The notes under the pieces were generated by a model, which saw only the letters and a list, made by a program, of their open reading frames with translations, did not search any database and was not told the DNA's origin. Positions 1-51,998 of a stretch of DNA of 64,000 nt are shown piece by piece (the stretch's first letter is position 1; the number at the start of each line of letters is the position of its first letter). Source of the DNA: Planctomycetota bacterium (GTDB taxonomy: Bacteria > Planctomycetota > Planctomycetia > Planctomycetales > Planctomycetaceae); contig JAHZKX010000051.1 of assembly GCA_022600195.1 (NCBI GenBank), forward strand, positions 124,001 to 188,000. Direction: 5' to 3'. The translations under genes were made by a program, and so were the position numbers.

Positions 1-590
1 AATTTTTTTGCCTGAGTATTTGCCAGCTTGTATTTATCTTCAAGGTTTGGTGCTGTCGCCTCATCAAACCAAAAAAGGACATGGGAGGAATGAGCGCCTC
101 GGAATCCCTCAATATGTTGTGGATTTGCAAGAGAAATAGAATGTTGTTTGTTATCATATACACCGGAAGTAAGAAGTTTTCCCGGCGGTTTAAAGGACAT
201 TTGGCGCCACCATTTATCAACTTCACCAAAGGCAATTTTTTGTGCCATTTTCATGGAATCACGAGTAATGATTATTTTGGCATCGTTCCAGATATGATAG
301 TACATACAACAGGCAATACCTGCTGCAGCTCCTTTTCTGCAGCCTGTATTTCCTTTTACAAAAACGCGTCGAATTGTAGGATTGAACAGCGACTCAATAA
401 TGTCCCACTGCCAGTGATCTAATTTCACTGTCGGCCATTGTAATTTGACAAAAGGACGAATCTTCCCAGAGCGAGCCTGACCAATGGCTGCATTTAGCTC
501 AGTCTCCCGAGTTGAATGAAGACGGTCTCTGTTTTCCTGTTCAATTCGAATGAGCGAGTTATTCTTAAAGTGATTCAAAATCATCACCAT
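1..590 (-). CDS. Phage terminase large subunit-like ATPase, truncated by window edge
   Basis: About 196 codons read leftward from the ATG at 590-588 and run off the window. The translation shows a terminase-like ATPase core. A Walker A-like segment, GNTGCRKG, lies at residues 80-87, followed by a strand-forming AKIIITR segment and then a Walker B/acid motif, VLFWFDEATA, at residues 171-180. This order is that of phage packaging ATPases. The Walker A is atypical because the Ser/Thr after the Lys is Gly. The first stop upstream is a TAA six bases before the two closely spaced ATGs. A short coding-like stretch in another frame precedes it, so the true N-terminus may be lost to a frameshift. The C-terminal nuclease domain, if any, lies outside the window. 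The fold call is fairly sure; whether the gene is intact is not known. Confidence 0.7.
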   Translation of the reverse strand, partial: MVMILNHFKNNSLIRIEQENRDRLHSTRETELNAAIGQARSGKIRPFVKLQWPTVKLDHWQWDIIESLFNPTIRRVFVKGNTGCRKGAAAGIACCMYYHIWNDAKIIITRDSMKMAQKIAFGEVDKWWRQMSFKPPGKLLTSGVYDNKQHSISLANPQHIEGFRGAHSSHVLFWFDEATAPNLEDKYKLANTQAKK

Positions 591-46284: not shown

Positions 46285-47403
46285 TTAAATCAGACCAAAT
46301 CGCTTTGCTTCTTTCATTCGTTTCGGACCAATGTAGCGAAAGCTGGCTGTGATTCTTCCGTGACTGGATGCTTTTCGATGTTTACCCTCTCTATCGAATC
46401 CATCCTGGCGATTTGCAGAAGACGGTTTGCGAATCAATTTCCAGAGCCTGGATTTTGCACGATGGTAAATCATGGCTGGATGGCCGGTAACACTGGAATA
46501 TTTTTTTTTACAAGCATAGAGAGAGGCTACGTATTCGCTTAATGCATGACCAATGCCAGCCCCTTGAAAGTCCGGGAGACAGACTGTTCTATGTTCTCTG
46601 AAGGAAGAGGCTGTTTTGTGCGGAAAATGTATCACCGCGGTGAAAGCAGCAGGTTGGCCCTCAACTAAAGCCATAAAGCAGTTCGCGGATTTATGAATCG
46701 ATCCATCTAAATAATGATGTTTCCGAAATAATTCCCACGCACTTCGATGCACGTTAATAATTTCGAGAGAGATTGGGGGTCGCGATTGCCTTTCGCACCT
46801 CCACTGAAAATCATCCGTGGCTGGCTGGTAGATCCAATCGGGATCAAGCCAGTTTATAATGTCGTAGTGACAAGTGATGGCTATGAATTTCTGTTTTCTT
46901 TTCCGAACTGTTTTTGCAATGGCGCAACTACTGATTTGCGCTACGGTCCGATCCACTACCGAAGAATACTCATCGATGGCGACGATGTCTGATGGTTCGG
47001 CCAAAGCCCTGGCGATCGTCACTCGGAACTGTTCACCGTTCGAAAGCACATGATAAGGCTTTAACCAGCCTGGAGGTGATGAGAATCCGACCGAAGAGAG
47101 CAGGGCAGCAATCTCTTTCATTCCCATTTCTCTGGGAAAAGCATCAATGATACTTTTCTTCTGGAACCATTCAAAACCATCGATTAAATCATTTTTGAAT
47201 AGTTCTCTGGCAAGAGTCGTCTTCCCACAGCCGGATGGACCGACGATCAATCCAATGTTCCACGCAAACTGTTCCAGAGGCAGGTTTGCCGACCACGCAA
47301 CTCGGCTTGTCTTTTCGGCTGGAATGCCAAACATACCCTCCAGTTGAATCACACGAGGACTGCGGATGACTTGAGACTCTCTTATGATATCCACGATCGG
47401 CAT
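46285..47403 (-). CDS. ABC-type ATPase fused to a GNAT acetyltransferase domain
   Basis: A 372-residue fusion. Residues ~1-205 are an ABC-type ATPase: Walker A VGPSGCGKTT (54-63), a signature variant LSNGEQ (120-125), Walker B DIVAIDEYSS (139-148) and switch His in AITCHYD (179). Residues ~213-325 are a GNAT-fold domain with KHHYLDGSIHKSANCFMAL, then the acetyl-CoA loop DFQGAGIG (278-285), and SVTGHPAMIYHRAKS. There is no membrane segment and no transporter partner, so this is not a transport ATPase. Its start overlaps the end of the ParB-like gene by 22 bases. Phage Mu Mom, a DNA base modifier, also has a GNAT-like fold; a similar role is an inference only. It is the last gene of the phage-like module. 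Confidence 0.8.
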   Translation of the reverse strand: MPIVDIIRESQVIRSPRVIQLEGMFGIPAEKTSRVAWSANLPLEQFAWNIGLIVGPSGCGKTTLARELFKNDLIDGFEWFQKKSIIDAFPREMGMKEIAALLSSVGFSSPPGWLKPYHVLSNGEQFRVTIARALAEPSDIVAIDEYSSVVDRTVAQISSCAIAKTVRKRKQKFIAITCHYDIINWLDPDWIYQPATDDFQWRCERQSRPPISLEIINVHRSAWELFRKHHYLDGSIHKSANCFMALVEGQPAAFTAVIHFPHKTASSFREHRTVCLPDFQGAGIGHALSEYVASLYACKKKYSSVTGHPAMIYHRAKSRLWKLIRKPSSANRQDGFDREGKHRKASSHGRITASFRYIGPKRMKEAKRFGLI

Positions 47404-47939
47404 ACGAATCCCTCTTTTTTTAATCGCTTTAAGAGTGCAATCTGCTCAAATTCATCTTTGCAATCAATCAGTACACTGAAAGAATCCGTCAAGAGATGCG
47501 ATTCATCTTCGCCTTCGATCTTTTCCATAACATCAGAACTGACACTCGACAGAGAATCGAGCAGTTCCTGCAGATCCTTTGAATCAGTAGAAACCGAAGT
47601 AATCAGAGTGTCCAATGCAATCTGATCCGTATTTGCCATTGATGTGACAGTATCGAATGTCGCCAGAATTTTCTCTGCTTCGGGTTTCGTTACATCCAAA
47701 ACCAAACAGGGAACTTTTTCCTCTTCAGCGATATCGGCCCGTAAATGACCATCAATGATTTCGAATGTTCCATTCTTACAATCTCGCACCAGACATGCAG
47801 AAGCAAACCCCACTTCTTTCAGAATCGCGCGCAATACTGTTTCCTGTGTTTCTTTATGAATTCGCCAGTTCTTCAGATTGCGTTTCAGTTGAGAAGCTTG
47901 AATGCGTCGAAAACTTTTGATGCGGTCTTTGAATTTCAT
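47382..47939 (-). CDS. ParB-like nuclease-domain protein
   Basis: A 185-residue protein. An N-terminal ParB/Sulfiredoxin-like domain runs over ~15-100, with the nucleotide-binding core TFEIIDGHLRADIAEEEKVPCLVLDV (DGHLR at 63-67 corresponds to the G-x-x-R-x-x-A box of ParB). A C-terminal acidic part (about 120-185) is mostly helical. No helix-turn-helix partition domain follows, so this is the phage/DNA-modification type rather than a chromosome-partition ParB. The frame is open to 48056, but the ATG at 47939 lies 20 bases after the zinc-ribbon gene stop and fits better. It overlaps the ABC-GNAT start, suggesting the two work together. Confidence 0.8.
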   Translation of the reverse strand: MKFKDRIKSFRRIQASQLKRNLKNWRIHKETQETVLRAILKEVGFASACLVRDCKNGTFEIIDGHLRADIAEEEKVPCLVLDVTKPEAEKILATFDTVTSMANTDQIALDTLITSVSTDSKDLQELLDSLSSVSSDVMEKIEGEDESHLLTDSFSVLIDCKDEFEQIALLKRLKKEGFVCRSWIS

Positions 47940-47959
47940 ATTTATTCTCAAATTAATTT

Positions 47960-48220
47960 TTATAGACAATCCAGACAGCGATTTGATCCATAACGTTGAC
48001 GGATCTGGTCTTTGTGATAATCGCCTTTGAAGATGGGCGCACCACAGCGGGCACAAGCAGAAATGGGTTCGTGTTTCACAAGCACTGAACTGACGACAAG
48101 ATCCGGAAACTCTGCTTCGACCATTTTTGCTGCCAGGATATGTGTTTGCGCTTCCCGGTCAAGACGTTTTACAGGGCGATGATTTTTTTCTTGAGCAAGA
48201 TAAACAATAAAATGAGGCAT
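47960..48220 (-). CDS. Small zinc-finger protein in the phage-like module
   Basis: An 86-residue protein. It has a basic middle part and a C-terminal treble-clef-like zinc site: CARCGAPIF ... RCLDCL, two CxxC pairs about 27 residues apart. AAGGAA lies eight bases before the ATG at 48220; an ATG at 48256 has no such box. Its position directly before ParB-like and ABC-GNAT genes, 20 bases away, indicates co-expression. Short zinc-ribbon proteins are common phage nucleic-acid binders. No named family was recognised. Confidence 0.65.
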   Translation of the reverse strand: MPHFIVYLAQEKNHRPVKRLDREAQTHILAAKMVEAEFPDLVVSSVLVKHEPISACARCGAPIFKGDYHKDQIRQRYGSNRCLDCL

Positions 48221-48289
48221 GTCACATTCCTTTTCAAAACTGGAAATCGGTCTCAAACGACATTCATTACATATTTTAAAAGGAAATTC

Positions 48290-48410
48290 CTGTTTGTCAT
48301 GAGGTGCATGCAGGCATGCGTGATCAAGCTGAACCCGCGGTCTCTGAGTTATGGGCCCCGTAGGATGACCTGTTCTCTAACCGGCGTTAATTACTTAAAT
48401 AGGATGGGGA
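48290..48410 (-). other. tRNA-like remnant or structured element
   Basis: On the minus strand, between DUF5131 and the zinc-finger gene, are tRNA-like blocks in order: GGTTAGAG (D-loop like), CCCATAA (anticodon-loop like, CAT), GACCGCGGGTTC (variable/T-arm like). The T-stem cannot close properly and ~10 extra bases separate the first two blocks, so a working tRNA is not possible as read. GCATGC occurs twice nearby in a short palindrome. It may be a decayed tRNA, an attachment relic or a regulatory RNA. Confidence 0.3.
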
Positions 48411-48481
48411 ATGCAGTGGGAAGGTCCATAAAAAGCCTGTAACGCGTAAGGGTACATGATTGGTTTTGATCCAATCATGAT

Positions 48482-49276
48482 TTACACACGCGAACTCACT
48501 ATCATTCCCGATCCCAAACTTCGAAATGGTATCGAAAAATCATACTCTCTGGGAGTTGGAAACTGACGAATGAGATCGCCGTCCAATTCGATTCCCATTT
48601 CAGTGCGATGCCCGGCAGATTGCTTGTGAAAGAATGCGGCTCCAGAATCAGTACACTTTTTCCACATATCTCTTGCCCACTGCTTATCCTCTGGTCGATG
48701 ACCGGGGCCAGACTCACCTCCATAAATCACCCAGTCAATCCCGGAGAGATCAAGATCTGTGAGAGATCCGAGCGCTGGTTCATAGCTGATAAATCTTAGA
48801 ACAGCCGGAATTTTTCTCAGTAGATCCGCACGCTCCGCAACTTGCATATCTTCAATGGAAGTTCCGAGCCACACATTCGGGTAACCACTGTCTCCCCAGT
48901 TGTCGGGAAGGTTGTTAGCGATTCGCTCAGGCCGTTTGGTCAACACTTGAAAATGAAGCCACGAATTTTTTTTCATCAGCTCAAATACTTTTGGGCGTGT
49001 TTCATTTGCTACAGGATGATCTTCAAAAATGTCGCAAAGCGAAGCACAAAAGACTCTCCATAAGTTTCCTTCGCTGGCAGCTTTCGTATTCCACTTCCTG
49101 ACATTTTCCCAAGGTGCCTTTGTCACCTGTCGAGGCGCGTTTCCCCAAAGATCAAGACCCATGCGATTTTTTGTCAAAGTCAGCGCATAGCAATTTCGAC
49201 ACCCTTCACTGACTTTCGTGCATCCCATCCAGGGGTTGAATGTTGCATCAGTCCAAGCGATCAGTGTTTTTTCCAT
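48482..49276 (-). CDS. DUF5131 family protein (phage Gp37/Gp68-like)
   Basis: A 264-residue member of the phage Gp37/Gp68 family. The N-terminus has WTDATFNPWMGCTKVSEGC and NCYA, giving the cysteine cluster C19-x6-C26-x2-C29 that looks like a metal or Fe-S site. VLTKRPERI, WLGTSIED and SYEPALG follow in family order, then YGGESGPGHRP. The biochemical role is not established; the family is frequent in phages and mobile elements and has a radical-SAM-like look. GGGGAG lies seven bases before the ATG at 49276, a strong site. Confidence 0.88.
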   Translation of the reverse strand: MEKTLIAWTDATFNPWMGCTKVSEGCRNCYALTLTKNRMGLDLWGNAPRQVTKAPWENVRKWNTKAASEGNLWRVFCASLCDIFEDHPVANETRPKVFELMKKNSWLHFQVLTKRPERIANNLPDNWGDSGYPNVWLGTSIEDMQVAERADLLRKIPAVLRFISYEPALGSLTDLDLSGIDWVIYGGESGPGHRPEDKQWARDMWKKCTDSGAAFFHKQSAGHRTEMGIELDGDLIRQFPTPREYDFSIPFRSLGSGMIVSSRV

Positions 49277-49287
49277 GACTCGCTCCC

Positions 49288-49449
49288 CTAGAGTGCGTCG
49301 GATTGGAGCCCTGTTCCCTCACGAACGAAGTCGTTTTTTGGTTCCAACCGCACACCAATATATCGGGCATTACCTGACGAGACTGCTTCCACAGCCTCTA
49401 CTGCCAAAATATCATATTCGCAGCACCTGTTCAAAAAGCAGGTTAACAT
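49288..49449 (-). CDS. Small unknown protein upstream of DUF5131
   Basis: About 53 residues from the ATG at 49449, ending 11 bases before the DUF5131 start. The reading frame has coding-like content (AVSSGNARYIGVRLEPKNDF). A TTG at 49461 would add four residues, and the frame stays open to ~49500 without a good start. The stop codon sits just before the Shine-Dalgarno of DUF5131. It may be a short phage gene or the 3' end of a decayed one. No family was recognised. Confidence 0.4.
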   Translation of the reverse strand: MLTCFLNRCCEYDILAVEAVEAVSSGNARYIGVRLEPKNDFVREGTGLQSDAL

Positions 49450-49496
49450 AATTCCATGCAATTGTAATGCGATTCCGGGAGGTATTTTCTCATCTT

Positions 49497-49928
49497 TTAC
49501 TCAACCAATTCCAAATCAAACAGCGTGTCGGAATCGGTTCCTACTGGATTTGTTACTGGTGCTAGCTTTGATTTCAATGCGTCCGCAATTAACCAGCCTC
49601 CAACCGGCACGCCTAAACCCGTCGCAATCAGTCCAGCCCCAAGTGTCAGCTTTGCAAGAGTTCCCGCCGTGTTGTTTTGTGGTGGCATGTATTGGTGCGT
49701 CACCCGGTTATCATCGCCTATGTGCATTTCTTCGCCCTCGGGACGATTGTTATCAACGATTTCTTTTCCCAACAGCTTTTCGCGTGTGGACATCACCAGA
49801 GATTCCACGTTGTTAAATCGGTGGCTGGCCTGCCTCAGGTTCTCCGCTCGTTCCCCCACTTTGATTGACCAGAAGTGTTTCGCGATTCGCTCCTTCCACG
49901 TCAGTGGTTTCGTTTCCTCCGTCATCAT
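49497..49928 (-). CDS. Phage-like membrane protein of unknown function
   Basis: A 143-residue protein. An N-terminal helical, basic part contains WKERIAKHFWSIK. A Pro/Asn-rich patch QYMPPQNNT precedes a hydrophobic helix (about 82-112, LAKLTLGAGLIATGLGVPVG and WLIADAL), and there is a short acidic tail. GGAGAG stands just before two adjacent ATGs (49928 and 49925). One hydrophobic region plus helical soluble part would suit a virion-associated or holin-like small membrane protein. The first ~115 bases are also read in another frame by the 82-residue gene. Confidence 0.55.
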   Translation of the reverse strand: MMTEETKPLTWKERIAKHFWSIKVGERAENLRQASHRFNNVESLVMSTREKLLGKEIVDNNRPEGEEMHIGDDNRVTHQYMPPQNNTAGTLAKLTLGAGLIATGLGVPVGGWLIADALKSKLAPVTNPVGTDSDTLFDLELVE

Positions 49929-50061
49929 CTGCTCTCCATGAATGCACAAGTTGACCGAGCGTCCCACTTTGGAACGCACGGTCTAACTCGTTGTTTTGTT
50001 TGATCAGGCTGTTATGAAATTCATTGTTCTGCCTGATCAGTTCTTCCAGAGACTCGGCCAT
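49813..50061 (-). CDS. Small hydrophilic phage-like protein, coupled start
   Basis: An 82-residue protein with an N-terminal helical segment (LEELIRQNNEFHNSLIKQNN, heptad-like) and a disordered Gly/Glu-rich C-terminus. Its ATG overlaps the stop of the preceding gene in TAATG, which supports translation. The last ~115 bases overlap the start of the next gene in a different frame. It may be shorter in reality if the overlap is not tolerated. No family was recognised. Confidence 0.5.
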   Translation of the reverse strand: MAESLEELIRQNNEFHNSLIKQNNELDRAFQSGTLGQLVHSWRADDDGGNETTDVEGANRETLLVNQSGGTSGEPEAGQPPI

Positions 50062-50330
50062 TATGCAGCAGCCGGTCCGCCGGGATTCACCTTGGATTGA
50101 ACCTCACGAATGCCGACCGCTTCATCCAGGGTCACCATTCGTTTGTTTTCCAGGTAATCGTAATCGACCACTTTCTGAACCGTCACAAAGTTATTCTGTG
50201 CGACAGTTCCCGTCTGCATGAGTTGCGTCAACATGTGGTTGGCAACATTATCAGATAAGTCTACAGCCATCTCCTTTTCTCCTTCACCCTCTACAGGGAT
50301 CTCAACTTCTAAAATATCGCCGTCTGGCAT
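50061..50330 (-). CDS. Small acidic phage-like protein
   Basis: An 89-residue acidic protein (GDILEVEIPVEGEGEKEM near the N-terminus, helical after ~30). Its ATG overlaps the stop of the protease gene in TAATG, and its own stop overlaps the next start in the same way, so it is part of a tightly coupled chain. No known fold was recognised. Short acidic proteins placed after a protease and before a small hydrophilic protein could be tail or inhibitor proteins; this is only a guess. Confidence 0.6.
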   Translation of the reverse strand: MPDGDILEVEIPVEGEGEKEMAVDLSDNVANHMLTQLMQTGTVAQNNFVTVQKVVDYDYLENKRMVTLDEAVGIREVQSKVNPGGPAAA

Positions 50331-51190
50331 TACTTAGCCTCACTTTGTTTAACGGCTTTAAACCTGAGTTTGATCGGTGATCCAAGCGGGTATGTCTGCT
50401 CGCTTAAAACCTGATCGTCAGAACCAATGATCTGGACCGGGATTTCAGTTTTTGAAAGTCGGTCCAACTGTTCGCGGAGTTTGGAAATCTCACCTTTCAA
50501 GGCTACGATTTCCTGACTGTCCTTAGGAATGGGGGGATCGGTTTTTTGCGGTGGAGAAACTACAATCGACGATCCCCGGCAAGCGGGCATCCTTCCGTAA
50601 ATCCTGAGAATTTCTGATCTGATCAAGACAGAATCGGTATAAATGGTTGTGCTTCGACTGGGTACGATCGCGCTGATAATTCCTACTACTTGACCGTTGG
50701 CCAAAATCGGCCCGCCTGAATCGCCCTGCGCTACCATTTTGGAGAAATAGCGACCGTTCCGATTGACTCTGATTTTTGCTTTCAGTCTTCGCAGTTTGTA
50801 AATGCCCTGTGAGTAGCCGTAGGCCGTTGCATCAATTCCATCTGTCGGCTGACTGCTGGCAACGTGAAAACATTTGGGCGCTGATATCACCCGCGTCTCC
50901 ACAATGGCATAGTCCAGGCTGTCAGTGTATTGCTTAAAAACCACCTTGGCAGGCCACCATTGCCCGCCATAGCCAATTCGGATTGTAGTCGCGTCATTGA
51001 CGACATGTGCCGCTGTGAGATAAACAGAGCGATTGTCGATGTTCCCGATGTAAGCACACGCGCCTGTACCTGTGATTTCACGACATCCATTCGCCGTGCA
51101 TTGTCGTTCAATGGTTCGGATCGCCAACGCCTGCGCCTGCACAATAACAGTTGTCATCAGCACAAATATCATAGTGAGTGTTTTTACCAT
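50330..51190 (-). CDS. Secreted trypsin-like serine protease in the phage-like module
   Basis: A 286-residue protein with a signal peptide (about 1-22, ending VQAQA), then a chymotrypsin/trypsin-fold protease. His62 is in TAAHVV, Asp93 in SLDYAIVE and Ser158 in QGDSGGPI, a full catalytic triad in the right order. The C-terminal ~90 residues include a coiled-coil-like stretch (EIVALKGEISKLREQLDRL) and a beta tail. The ATG at 51190 overlaps the stop of the PLA2-like gene by seven bases (ATGGTAA), so translation is probably coupled. The frame is open further upstream but overlaps that gene. A secreted protease is unusual in a phage-like block. Confidence 0.8.
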   Translation of the reverse strand: MVKTLTMIFVLMTTVIVQAQALAIRTIERQCTANGCREITGTGACAYIGNIDNRSVYLTAAHVVNDATTIRIGYGGQWWPAKVVFKQYTDSLDYAIVETRVISAPKCFHVASSQPTDGIDATAYGYSQGIYKLRRLKAKIRVNRNGRYFSKMVAQGDSGGPILANGQVVGIISAIVPSRSTTIYTDSVLIRSEILRIYGRMPACRGSSIVVSPPQKTDPPIPKDSQEIVALKGEISKLREQLDRLSKTEIPVQIIGSDDQVLSEQTYPLGSPIKLRFKAVKQSEAK

Positions 51191-51558
51191 GAAATATATC
51201 TCTCCCAAAACAACCAAAAATAATGCCACGGATTTTTGGGGACTTTTCCCCGATGCCAACTGAAGGCACCTACACCAAACAAACGAACGCGACGGTAATA
51301 AAACCCCGCCATAAACTTCGAGAGGTCGCACGCTCTCAGGTTCCGATAAAGAGCCTGGTCTGCCCGTTTACGATCTTTTTTACAGCCACCCAGTTGATAA
51401 GCCCAGTCGTGAAAGTGGCACGCAGGACGAATATCCACGCCGCCGAATTCGTCTGGAGAGTAACTGCATCCATTCGATTTGAAGGTATCAATGGGTTTGA
51501 AGCCTTCCATCTTATTTAGCAGTGATTCGGGTAGATCGGCGTTGGTGATTTCTTTCAT
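51184..51558 (-). CDS. Phospholipase A2-like protein
   Basis: A 124-residue protein. The active-site helix is ACHFHDWAYQLGG (about 46-58), matching the CxxHD of PLA2, with His50 and Asp51. The Ca-loop equivalent CSYSPDEFGGVD precedes it, and RADQALYRNLR follows where PLA2 has a second helix. No disulfide network of animal PLA2 is expected. The start ATG overlaps the stop of the upstream membrane protein in TGATG. PLA2 domains occur in phage and parvovirus particles for membrane passage; whether it acts on the host envelope or elsewhere is not known. Confidence 0.7.
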   Translation of the reverse strand: MKEITNADLPESLLNKMEGFKPIDTFKSNGCSYSPDEFGGVDIRPACHFHDWAYQLGGCKKDRKRADQALYRNLRACDLSKFMAGFYYRRVRLFGVGAFSWHRGKVPKNPWHYFWLFWERYISW

Positions 51559-51803
51559 CAATTTTCCCCGAAGACTCGATCTTCCATGCGACTGATGCGT
51601 CTTTCATGTGAATTGACCATTTCAATTAATAACTCCTTGTTGGAATCGAGCTTTTCATCAATTTCAATGAGTTGATGGCTGTGCTCAAGTAACGTCTTCG
51701 CAGTCCATGTGATGGCCCCCACTCCTCCCGCAATGATGGGCGAGAAAACACAAGCAATGACCCACGCTGGAATGAAGATTCCCTTACGAACGGTTTCTGG
51801 CAT
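51558..51803 (-). CDS. Holin-like small membrane protein, first gene of the phage-like module
   Basis: An 81-residue protein with one hydrophobic helix (about 10-30, IPAWVIACVFSPIIAGGVGA) followed by a charged helical tail that could form a coiled coil (LIEIDEKLDSNKELLIEMV). GAGG lies six bases before the ATG at 51803; the frame is open to 51914, but that would run into the terminator. It is holin-like in size and layout, and its stop overlaps the PLA2-like start. Holin next to lytic-type enzymes is typical of phage lysis modules, but sequence alone cannot prove it. Confidence 0.55.
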   Translation of the reverse strand: MPETVRKGIFIPAWVIACVFSPIIAGGVGAITWTAKTLLEHSHQLIEIDEKLDSNKELLIEMVNSHERRISRMEDRVFGEN

Positions 51804-51891
51804 ATTGGCCTCAGTAAAATCAGCAGAAAGGATTGAAGTCTGAGGTTGCTCATGTTCGCGATCGGCGTGCGTGATACAAGGTGAGTTGCAT

Positions 51892-51928
51892 AAAAAAAAC
51901 ACCTCTCGTTGCACAGAACGACAGGTGT
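51892..51928 (-). terminator. Strong intrinsic terminator upstream of the phage-like module
   Basis: On the minus strand, ACACCTGTCGTT pairs with AACGAGAGGTGT across a six-base loop, ten Watson-Crick pairs with one two-base mismatch, followed by seven or more Ts. It lies 71 bases past the stop of the 51999-52340 gene and insulates the module from it. Transcription of the module must therefore start between ~51890 and 51803. Confidence 0.85.
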
Positions 51929-51998
51929 TGAAAAATCACTTGATCAAACAAATTAATTAATGAGCATCAAATAAATGCTGGTGTTGTTTCTGAATAGT

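Follow-up and report, generated by a model that had tools for sequence, protein, structure and literature searches.

Background

Gene-transfer agents (GTAs) of the kind represented by RcGTA and the Rhodogtaviriformidae have a head-tail cluster with an HK97 capsid and genes at several loci, are inherited vertically under purifying selection and are absent from some lineages (PMC6821227, PMC9662315; papers given by PMC number are cited here from excerpts). For RcGTA a compositional bias towards low carbon has also been reported (PMC6821227, PMC7947584), and its TerS binds DNA non-specifically (PMC7947584). BhGTA (VSH-1) of Brachyspira has a putative terminase that is encoded apart from its main cluster and conserved inside a single genus (PMC9662315). 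According to the excerpt of PMC12946183, only a small number of GTA-like elements are known beyond the Alphaproteobacteria. Here we describe a set of phage-derived genes of a planctomycete, part of which lies in a stretch of 64,000 nucleotides (the window; G000:C77:124001-188000, on contig JAHZKX010000051.1) and part directly to its left. The source genome, G000, comprises 6.58 Mb in 84 contigs. We refer to the host as a Gimesia-like planctomycete, the genus name being taken from the records of those relatives that bear the gene for the terminase large subunit (TerL). In our opinion it is fairly probable that these genes are a split, vertically inherited, domesticated siphophage of the GTA type.

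Among the planctomycete and Gimesia literature matches listed, titles and abstract openings report no planctomycete GTA; in the excerpts, PMC12213060 mentions GTA in a reference only, and PMC10945688 speaks of prophage only in general discussion and in one reference. If our hypothesis is true, a GTA candidate inherited vertically across a genus, with copies that look intact and, in sister species, copies that were broken independently, would make the origin, upkeep and loss of such agents directly testable in a new phylum. The presence of a DNA-modification gene pair may also be a first for a GTA-like element, a point for which no dedicated search was made.

Arrangement of the element in Gimesia

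A first-pass annotation, made from the letters of the window, had described ten to eleven small same-strand genes, had taken them to be phage-like and had seen no capsid, portal or integrase among them. The block indeed consists of ten same-strand genes, from 46285 to about 51806 of the window, with the families that were named (Table 1), and a phage origin is borne out. No integrase of the family searched (PF00589) lies beside it either. As to capsid and portal, the statement holds for the block itself but not beyond it, since a head-tail cluster adjoins the window. To the left of the window, with the phage genes on the strand of the block, we find TerL (which runs into window 1-590), portal, an aminotransferase, a YkgJ-like host gene, protease and capsid, and beyond the capsid come connectors, neck, tail tube, a chaperone-like gene, a tape-measure candidate and long tail proteins. 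In two other genomes an opposite-strand sodium/solute symporter, not seen in G000, also stands between portal and aminotransferase. From end to end the pieces take up some 75 kb of the chromosome.

Family matches were obtained for the portal (PF04860, E 3e-23), the HK97 capsid (PF05065, E 2e-45), a connector (PF05135, 1e-4; phrog_442, 4e-26), the tail tube (PF18906, E 2e-15) and the neck protein (PF05069, E 4e-10). The prohead protease was recognised through PHROGs alone (phrog_80, 6e-7), and the tape-measure candidate has no family match. TerL has no Pfam match (the G002 copy was searched), and for its N-terminal 196 residues PHROGs gives just a weak match, to a family of unknown function. 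The TerL call rests on the place of the gene, on two phage terminase large subunit records (E 8e-9 and 6e-7) and on motifs, which we take to be the P-loop and the acidic motifs of such enzymes.

We searched 16 other genomes of the same genus, nine of them assembled as a single contig, for TerL and the ABC-ATPase/GNAT fusion (ABC/GNAT). Each of the two genes is present in 15 of the 16, ABC/GNAT being absent only from the draft G005 and TerL only from the draft G006. Nine of the ten block genes, in the order holin-like, PLA2, protease, g50061, g49813, g49497, CxxC protein, ParB, ABC/GNAT, keep the same order and place in all 13 genus loci with contig coverage, and therefore the block is not a product of chance. 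As the first-pass annotation had proposed to check, it recurs in a fixed order, and it is neither limited to full-length prophages nor scattered without order. The PLA2 gene of G014 is interrupted by an insertion, the end of ABC/GNAT in G015 runs off the contig, the contig of G010 carries only the part from DUF5131 to ABC/GNAT, and the block of G008 was fetched only in part. Host flanks are identical in kind where covered, with the exception of a response-regulator gene that is absent in G002, G003 and G015. The tenth gene, DUF5131, is excluded from the unit because it is confined to G000 and its nearest relative, the sister genome G010; it is a lineage-specific insert.

The distance from TerL to ABC/GNAT is 38.6-48.0 kb in all 12 genomes in which one contig carries the two genes. 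A PF05065 search places an HK97 capsid gene downstream of ABC/GNAT, at a distance of 48-57 kb and on its strand, in G000 and in 7 of the 9 single-contig genomes (the G016 copy is cut short); at that place G012 and G013 have none, and in G008 the capsid gene is 97 kb from ABC/GNAT. A free-standing satellite or a defence island, either of which the first-pass annotation had entertained, we reject, because the phage genes missing from the block lie at a fixed distance of some 46 kb from it; place and order are fixed across the genus, with no patchy presence. A complete prophage, with an integrase and a contiguous genome, is not what is found either: host genes split the element in 12 of 12 genomes, and of the 12 matches to the PF00589 integrase family in the source genome, the one integrase type searched, none is on the 385-kb contig C77.

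In 150 genomes of the family that were sampled, TerL was found in G000, in 10 same-genus genomes and, outside the genus, in G103 alone, as a weak partial match (E 1.6e-12). Its homologues in GTDB belong to Gimesia sp., uncultured Gimesia sp. and Planctomycetaceae bacterium, and to one contig binned with Emcibacter, which is discussed below. A search for empty sites in other genera by means of the flanking nagB-like gene returned distant paralogues only, the best with 35% identity.

Probable origin from one phage

In phages SL25, BiggityBass and phiGBSVK-E1, ABC/GNAT or the ParB and ABC/GNAT pair stands at most a few genes upstream of the terminase. When viral contigs were searched with one ABC/GNAT protein, no relative was returned; an alignment gave 346 relatives, of which the best 80 were kept. 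In viral contigs, ParB is directly upstream of ABC/GNAT in 63 of the 66 loci with room for it, and on the downstream side the queries used detected TerL in 18 of 68. Two genomes of the same class, G048 and G044, carry ParB, ABC/GNAT, TerS-like, TerL-like and portal-like genes in a row, as named by eye and position. Phage pT24, which is among our ABC/GNAT matches (H40), is named in PMC7824862, which gives, for a GNAT coupled to an ABC ATPase, a predicted and uncharacterised acyl modification of a DNA base.

The Emcibacter-binned contig is a phage-like one (L118, JAJFIP010000278.1, in a metagenome-assembled genome, G178). Its order is unsplit: helicase-like, RuvC-like, holin-like, PLA2, others, CxxC protein, ParB, glycosyltransferase-like, TerS-like, TerL, where the helicase-, RuvC-, glycosyltransferase-, TerS- and holin-like names were given by eye and position. 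Holin-like gene, PLA2, CxxC protein, ParB and TerL are thus ordered as in Gimesia, but L118 has its own helicase-, RuvC- and TerS-like genes, and a glycosyltransferase-like gene where Gimesia has ABC/GNAT, a gene that has no match in L118 or in G178. Identity to G000 is 76% for PLA2, 44% for the CxxC protein and 57% over residues 2-129 for ParB; TerL breaks off at residue 127 and is 72% identical over 118 residues. In a quick tree this 127-residue piece was placed among the Gimesia copies; the tree was flagged as under-filled, and the piece is too short to give a direction of transfer. Given the unsplit order in L118 and the neighbourhoods in phages, the Gimesia pieces look like one phage that was split by host DNA and has lost its replication genes and TerS.

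We can outline, with due reservation, how the element may have come about and may work. A tailed phage would have reached fixation in the Gimesia ancestor and would since have been inherited with the chromosome as a GTA-like element. Host genes divide it into what we regard as three pieces: the lysis, ParB and ABC/GNAT block; TerL and portal, on the same strand about 46 kb from the block; and, behind the symporter (where present), the aminotransferase and the YkgJ-like gene, a third piece with protease, capsid, connectors, tail tube, tape-measure candidate and tail-tip genes. Block and head-tail genes would be expressed together in few cells, induction being rare. Capsids, once assembled, would take up host DNA by headful, ParB and ABC/GNAT would act on the packaged DNA, the holin-like, PLA2-like and protease genes would release the particles, and kin would take them up. 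A more specific version is unlikely in our opinion, namely a planctomycete GTA whose phage ancestor would differ from those of the known families and in which ParB and ABC/GNAT would acyl-mark host DNA before packaging, as a protection against restriction in the recipient, and in which tail-tip exchange would tune the choice of recipients.

Inheritance and selection

Trees were built with FastTree from concatenated codons, and shared splits were counted in a set of 12 and a set of 8 genomes. The block tree and the host-gene tree have all 9 of 9 splits in common among 12 genomes, and the capsid (MCP) tree shares 5 of 5 with the host among 8. Values of dN/dS (pairwise Nei-Gojobori, own code, matches with at least 75% coverage) are mostly 0.02-0.2, with dS broadly like that of the flanking host genes. 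For the capsid they are 0.087, 0.022 and 0.044 in three pairs; in nine pairs each they are 0.055-0.113 for TerL, 0.040-0.086 for the portal and 0.075-0.330 for ABC/GNAT, where the top value belongs to a pair whose dS is just 0.05. Low dN/dS and trees congruent with the host argue for long retention under selection, that is, for an element inherited vertically with the genus and kept under purifying selection.

Decay, gene exchange and alternative readings

Several of the observations in this section weigh against a domesticated phage of the GTA type, the breaks among them. The head-tail locus was fetched in full for 13 genomes (G000-G004, G007-G009, G011-G014, G016) and is broken in seven, G000 included. 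In G000 the portal is interrupted by an in-frame stop and TerL has a change at a P-loop position where all 15 other aligned copies agree; hence the copy of the source genome is probably non-functional now. G004, G012 and G013 have capsid-tail deletions with differing ends (G004 retains a distant tape-measure-like stretch), G016 has a frameshift in the portal and a cut capsid, the tape-measure region of G011 is gone, and in G008 a 43-kb prophage-like insert lies inside the portal (C10:about 132006-174942; L141-L143). Judged by eye, this insert carries an integrase-like gene. No clear break was seen in the remaining six loci, although G009 has a short tape-measure open reading frame and G002 and G003 have a shorter protease.

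Nor do all trees and all genes behave alike. TerL with portal shares 7 of 9 splits with the host tree among 12 genomes, and the tail gene p510 shares 2 of 5 among 8; in the same 8-genome set, the block, TerL with portal, and MCP with p170 and gp6 each share 4 of 5. Elevated dN/dS was obtained for the prohead protease (0.286 and 0.446), for the block protease (up to 0.37), for p116 (up to 0.61) and for the genes in overlapping frames, g49813 (up to 0.64) and g49497 (up to 0.46).

The breaks in seven of the 13 loci speak for a rival reading, an immobilised prophage in decay, split by rearrangement, without present host function and not yet lost. The first-pass annotation had listed an eroded prophage among its options, and the broken genes of several species, the source genome among them, agree with it, as does the prohead protease with its dN/dS up to 0.45. 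Yet the presence of TerL and ABC/GNAT at one place in all nine single-contig genomes, together with a dN/dS mostly below 0.2 over genus-scale divergence, requires selection for most of the history of the element; the host-congruent trees likewise speak for long retention. We assign this reading a low but appreciable probability.

Exchange of genes is the next point. Distal tail genes (TAC/tail chaperone, tape measure, p246, p510) have been replaced between close species and the capsid has not; the replacement region was read at L060-L067. PBSX, a defective phage that has been conserved, forms particles lethal to related strains, and the swapped tail tips would fit a PBSX-like killing particle in which they set the targets. 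Such particles would also package host DNA, however, so that this reading overlaps with that of a GTA-like element; as a separate explanation we find it improbable. The PLA2 gene of G000 is 76% identical to that of L118 as against 67-72% to its genus counterparts along the whole or nearly the whole length (75% in G014, along only a part of the gene), which points to an exchange with phages.

A further reading is that the host has exapted the block alone, for DNA modification or programmed lysis, independently of particles. In its favour, all nine genes are open in G004, G012, G013 and G016, whose capsid is lost or truncated. In the pair G004 and G012, ABC/GNAT (0.099), TerL (0.092) and portal (0.084) still have constrained dN/dS. 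But the capsid deletions end differently and may be recent, and a rough count, with one break in about 5 kb of block (PLA2 in G014) and seven broken loci over some 20 kb of head-tail genes, shows no clear difference. We hold exaptation of the block alone to be improbable too.

Three further results count against the proposed GTA-like element. No TerS was seen beside the block or the head-tail piece. Homologues of the TerS-like protein of L118 turned up, at E <= 0.1, in every one of the 15 Gimesia genomes that were searched, as single genes in varying places (L145-L164), and by eye no phage neighbours were noticed in 20 stretches; as the places differ and such neighbours were not noticed, we do not assign any of them to the element. 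An operator-like word common to the upstream regions of both pieces was not found, since in all 8 genomes tested the best 14-base match did not exceed the maximum reached in 5 shuffles. Finally, carbon per residue, compared with 3-5 phage homologues, is slightly higher in TerL and MCP, lower in the portal and level in gp6. With TerL and capsid not below their phage homologues, the low-carbon bias, which is outside the GTA definition, is not found.

Comparison with known gene-transfer agents

Of the six features in the GTA definition given in the excerpt of PMC9662315, three are found here. Genes that appear to encode caudoviricete-derived particle proteins are present; the element is endogenised over multiple loci, as three pieces with the constant spacing described above; and inheritance is mostly vertical, with the tree counts already given for block, capsid, TerL with portal, and p510. 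The definition further names a particle head too small for the whole genome, particles that carry mostly random host DNA, and delivery of that DNA into other cells; as regards the first of these, the pieces here extend over about 75 kb. We liken the Gimesia element to RcGTA by description only. It belongs to another phylum, has a piece with ParB and ABC/GNAT and is known from genes alone, and its capsid cluster, unlike that of RcGTA, is itself interrupted by host genes and lacks the low-carbon bias. The likeness to BhGTA, a GTA shown by experiment, is likewise one of description. From the phage pair of ParB and ABC/GNAT (phrog_11143), in which the same two genes are adjacent, the Gimesia pair differs by the 46 kb of host genes before the terminase and by its vertical inheritance.

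Details of the block and other phage regions

Table 1. Genes of the block and the adjoining end of TerL, with positions in the window
Feature	Position	Strand	Remarks
TerL, 5' part	1..590	-	whole gene G000:C77:122884-124590, continuing left of the window
ABC-ATPase/GNAT fusion, 372 aa	46285..47403	-	phrog_11143, E 9.9e-105
ParB-like protein	47382..47942	-	PHROGs phrog_620, 7e-11; Pfam only 0.017
Small CxxC/zinc-finger-like protein	47960..48220	-	genus identity 77-95%; 44% to L118 homologue
DUF5131 (Gp37/Gp68)	48482..49276	-	Pfam PF07505, E 3.7e-67; insert outside the conserved unit
g49497, small protein, hydrophobic stretch at C-terminus	49497..49928	-
g49813, small unknown protein, 82 aa	49813..50061	-
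g50061, small unknown protein, 89 aa	50061..50330	-	genus identity 85-94%
Trypsin-like protease, N-terminus hydrophobic	50330..51190	-	PF13365, E 5.6e-10
PLA2-like protein	51184..51558	-	Pfam PF09056, E 3.4e-5, below the family's curated cut-off
Holin-like membrane protein	51558..51803	-	without family match; genus identity 88-95%

The four junction overlaps of the first-pass annotation (TGATG, ATGGTAA, TAATG, TAATG) are present in the sequence of the block, and two longer ones had been overlooked. ParB and ABC/GNAT overlap by 22 bases, and g49813 and g49497 by about 116 bases (49813-49928) in different frames, an arrangement kept genus-wide. Just upstream of the holin-like gene, at 51888-51930, a terminator-like inverted repeat is followed by a T-run, as judged by eye in 12 aligned genomes; its stem carries matched changes in part of the genomes and, in others, G000 included, a single mismatch.

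Other HK97 capsids of the genus are sporadic: on C55 of G000, at other sites in G001 and G016, and a different one in G015. At 1.91-1.95 Mb of C1, G016 has a second, more distant phage region (L097-L099), whose identity to the split element is 47% for TerL, 26% for the portal and 23% for the capsid. IMG/VR viral contigs (L129-L137) hold copies of the capsid-tail cluster of the genus, nine loci with 84-100% capsid identity; some of them bear genome-type ids and may be isolate proviruses.

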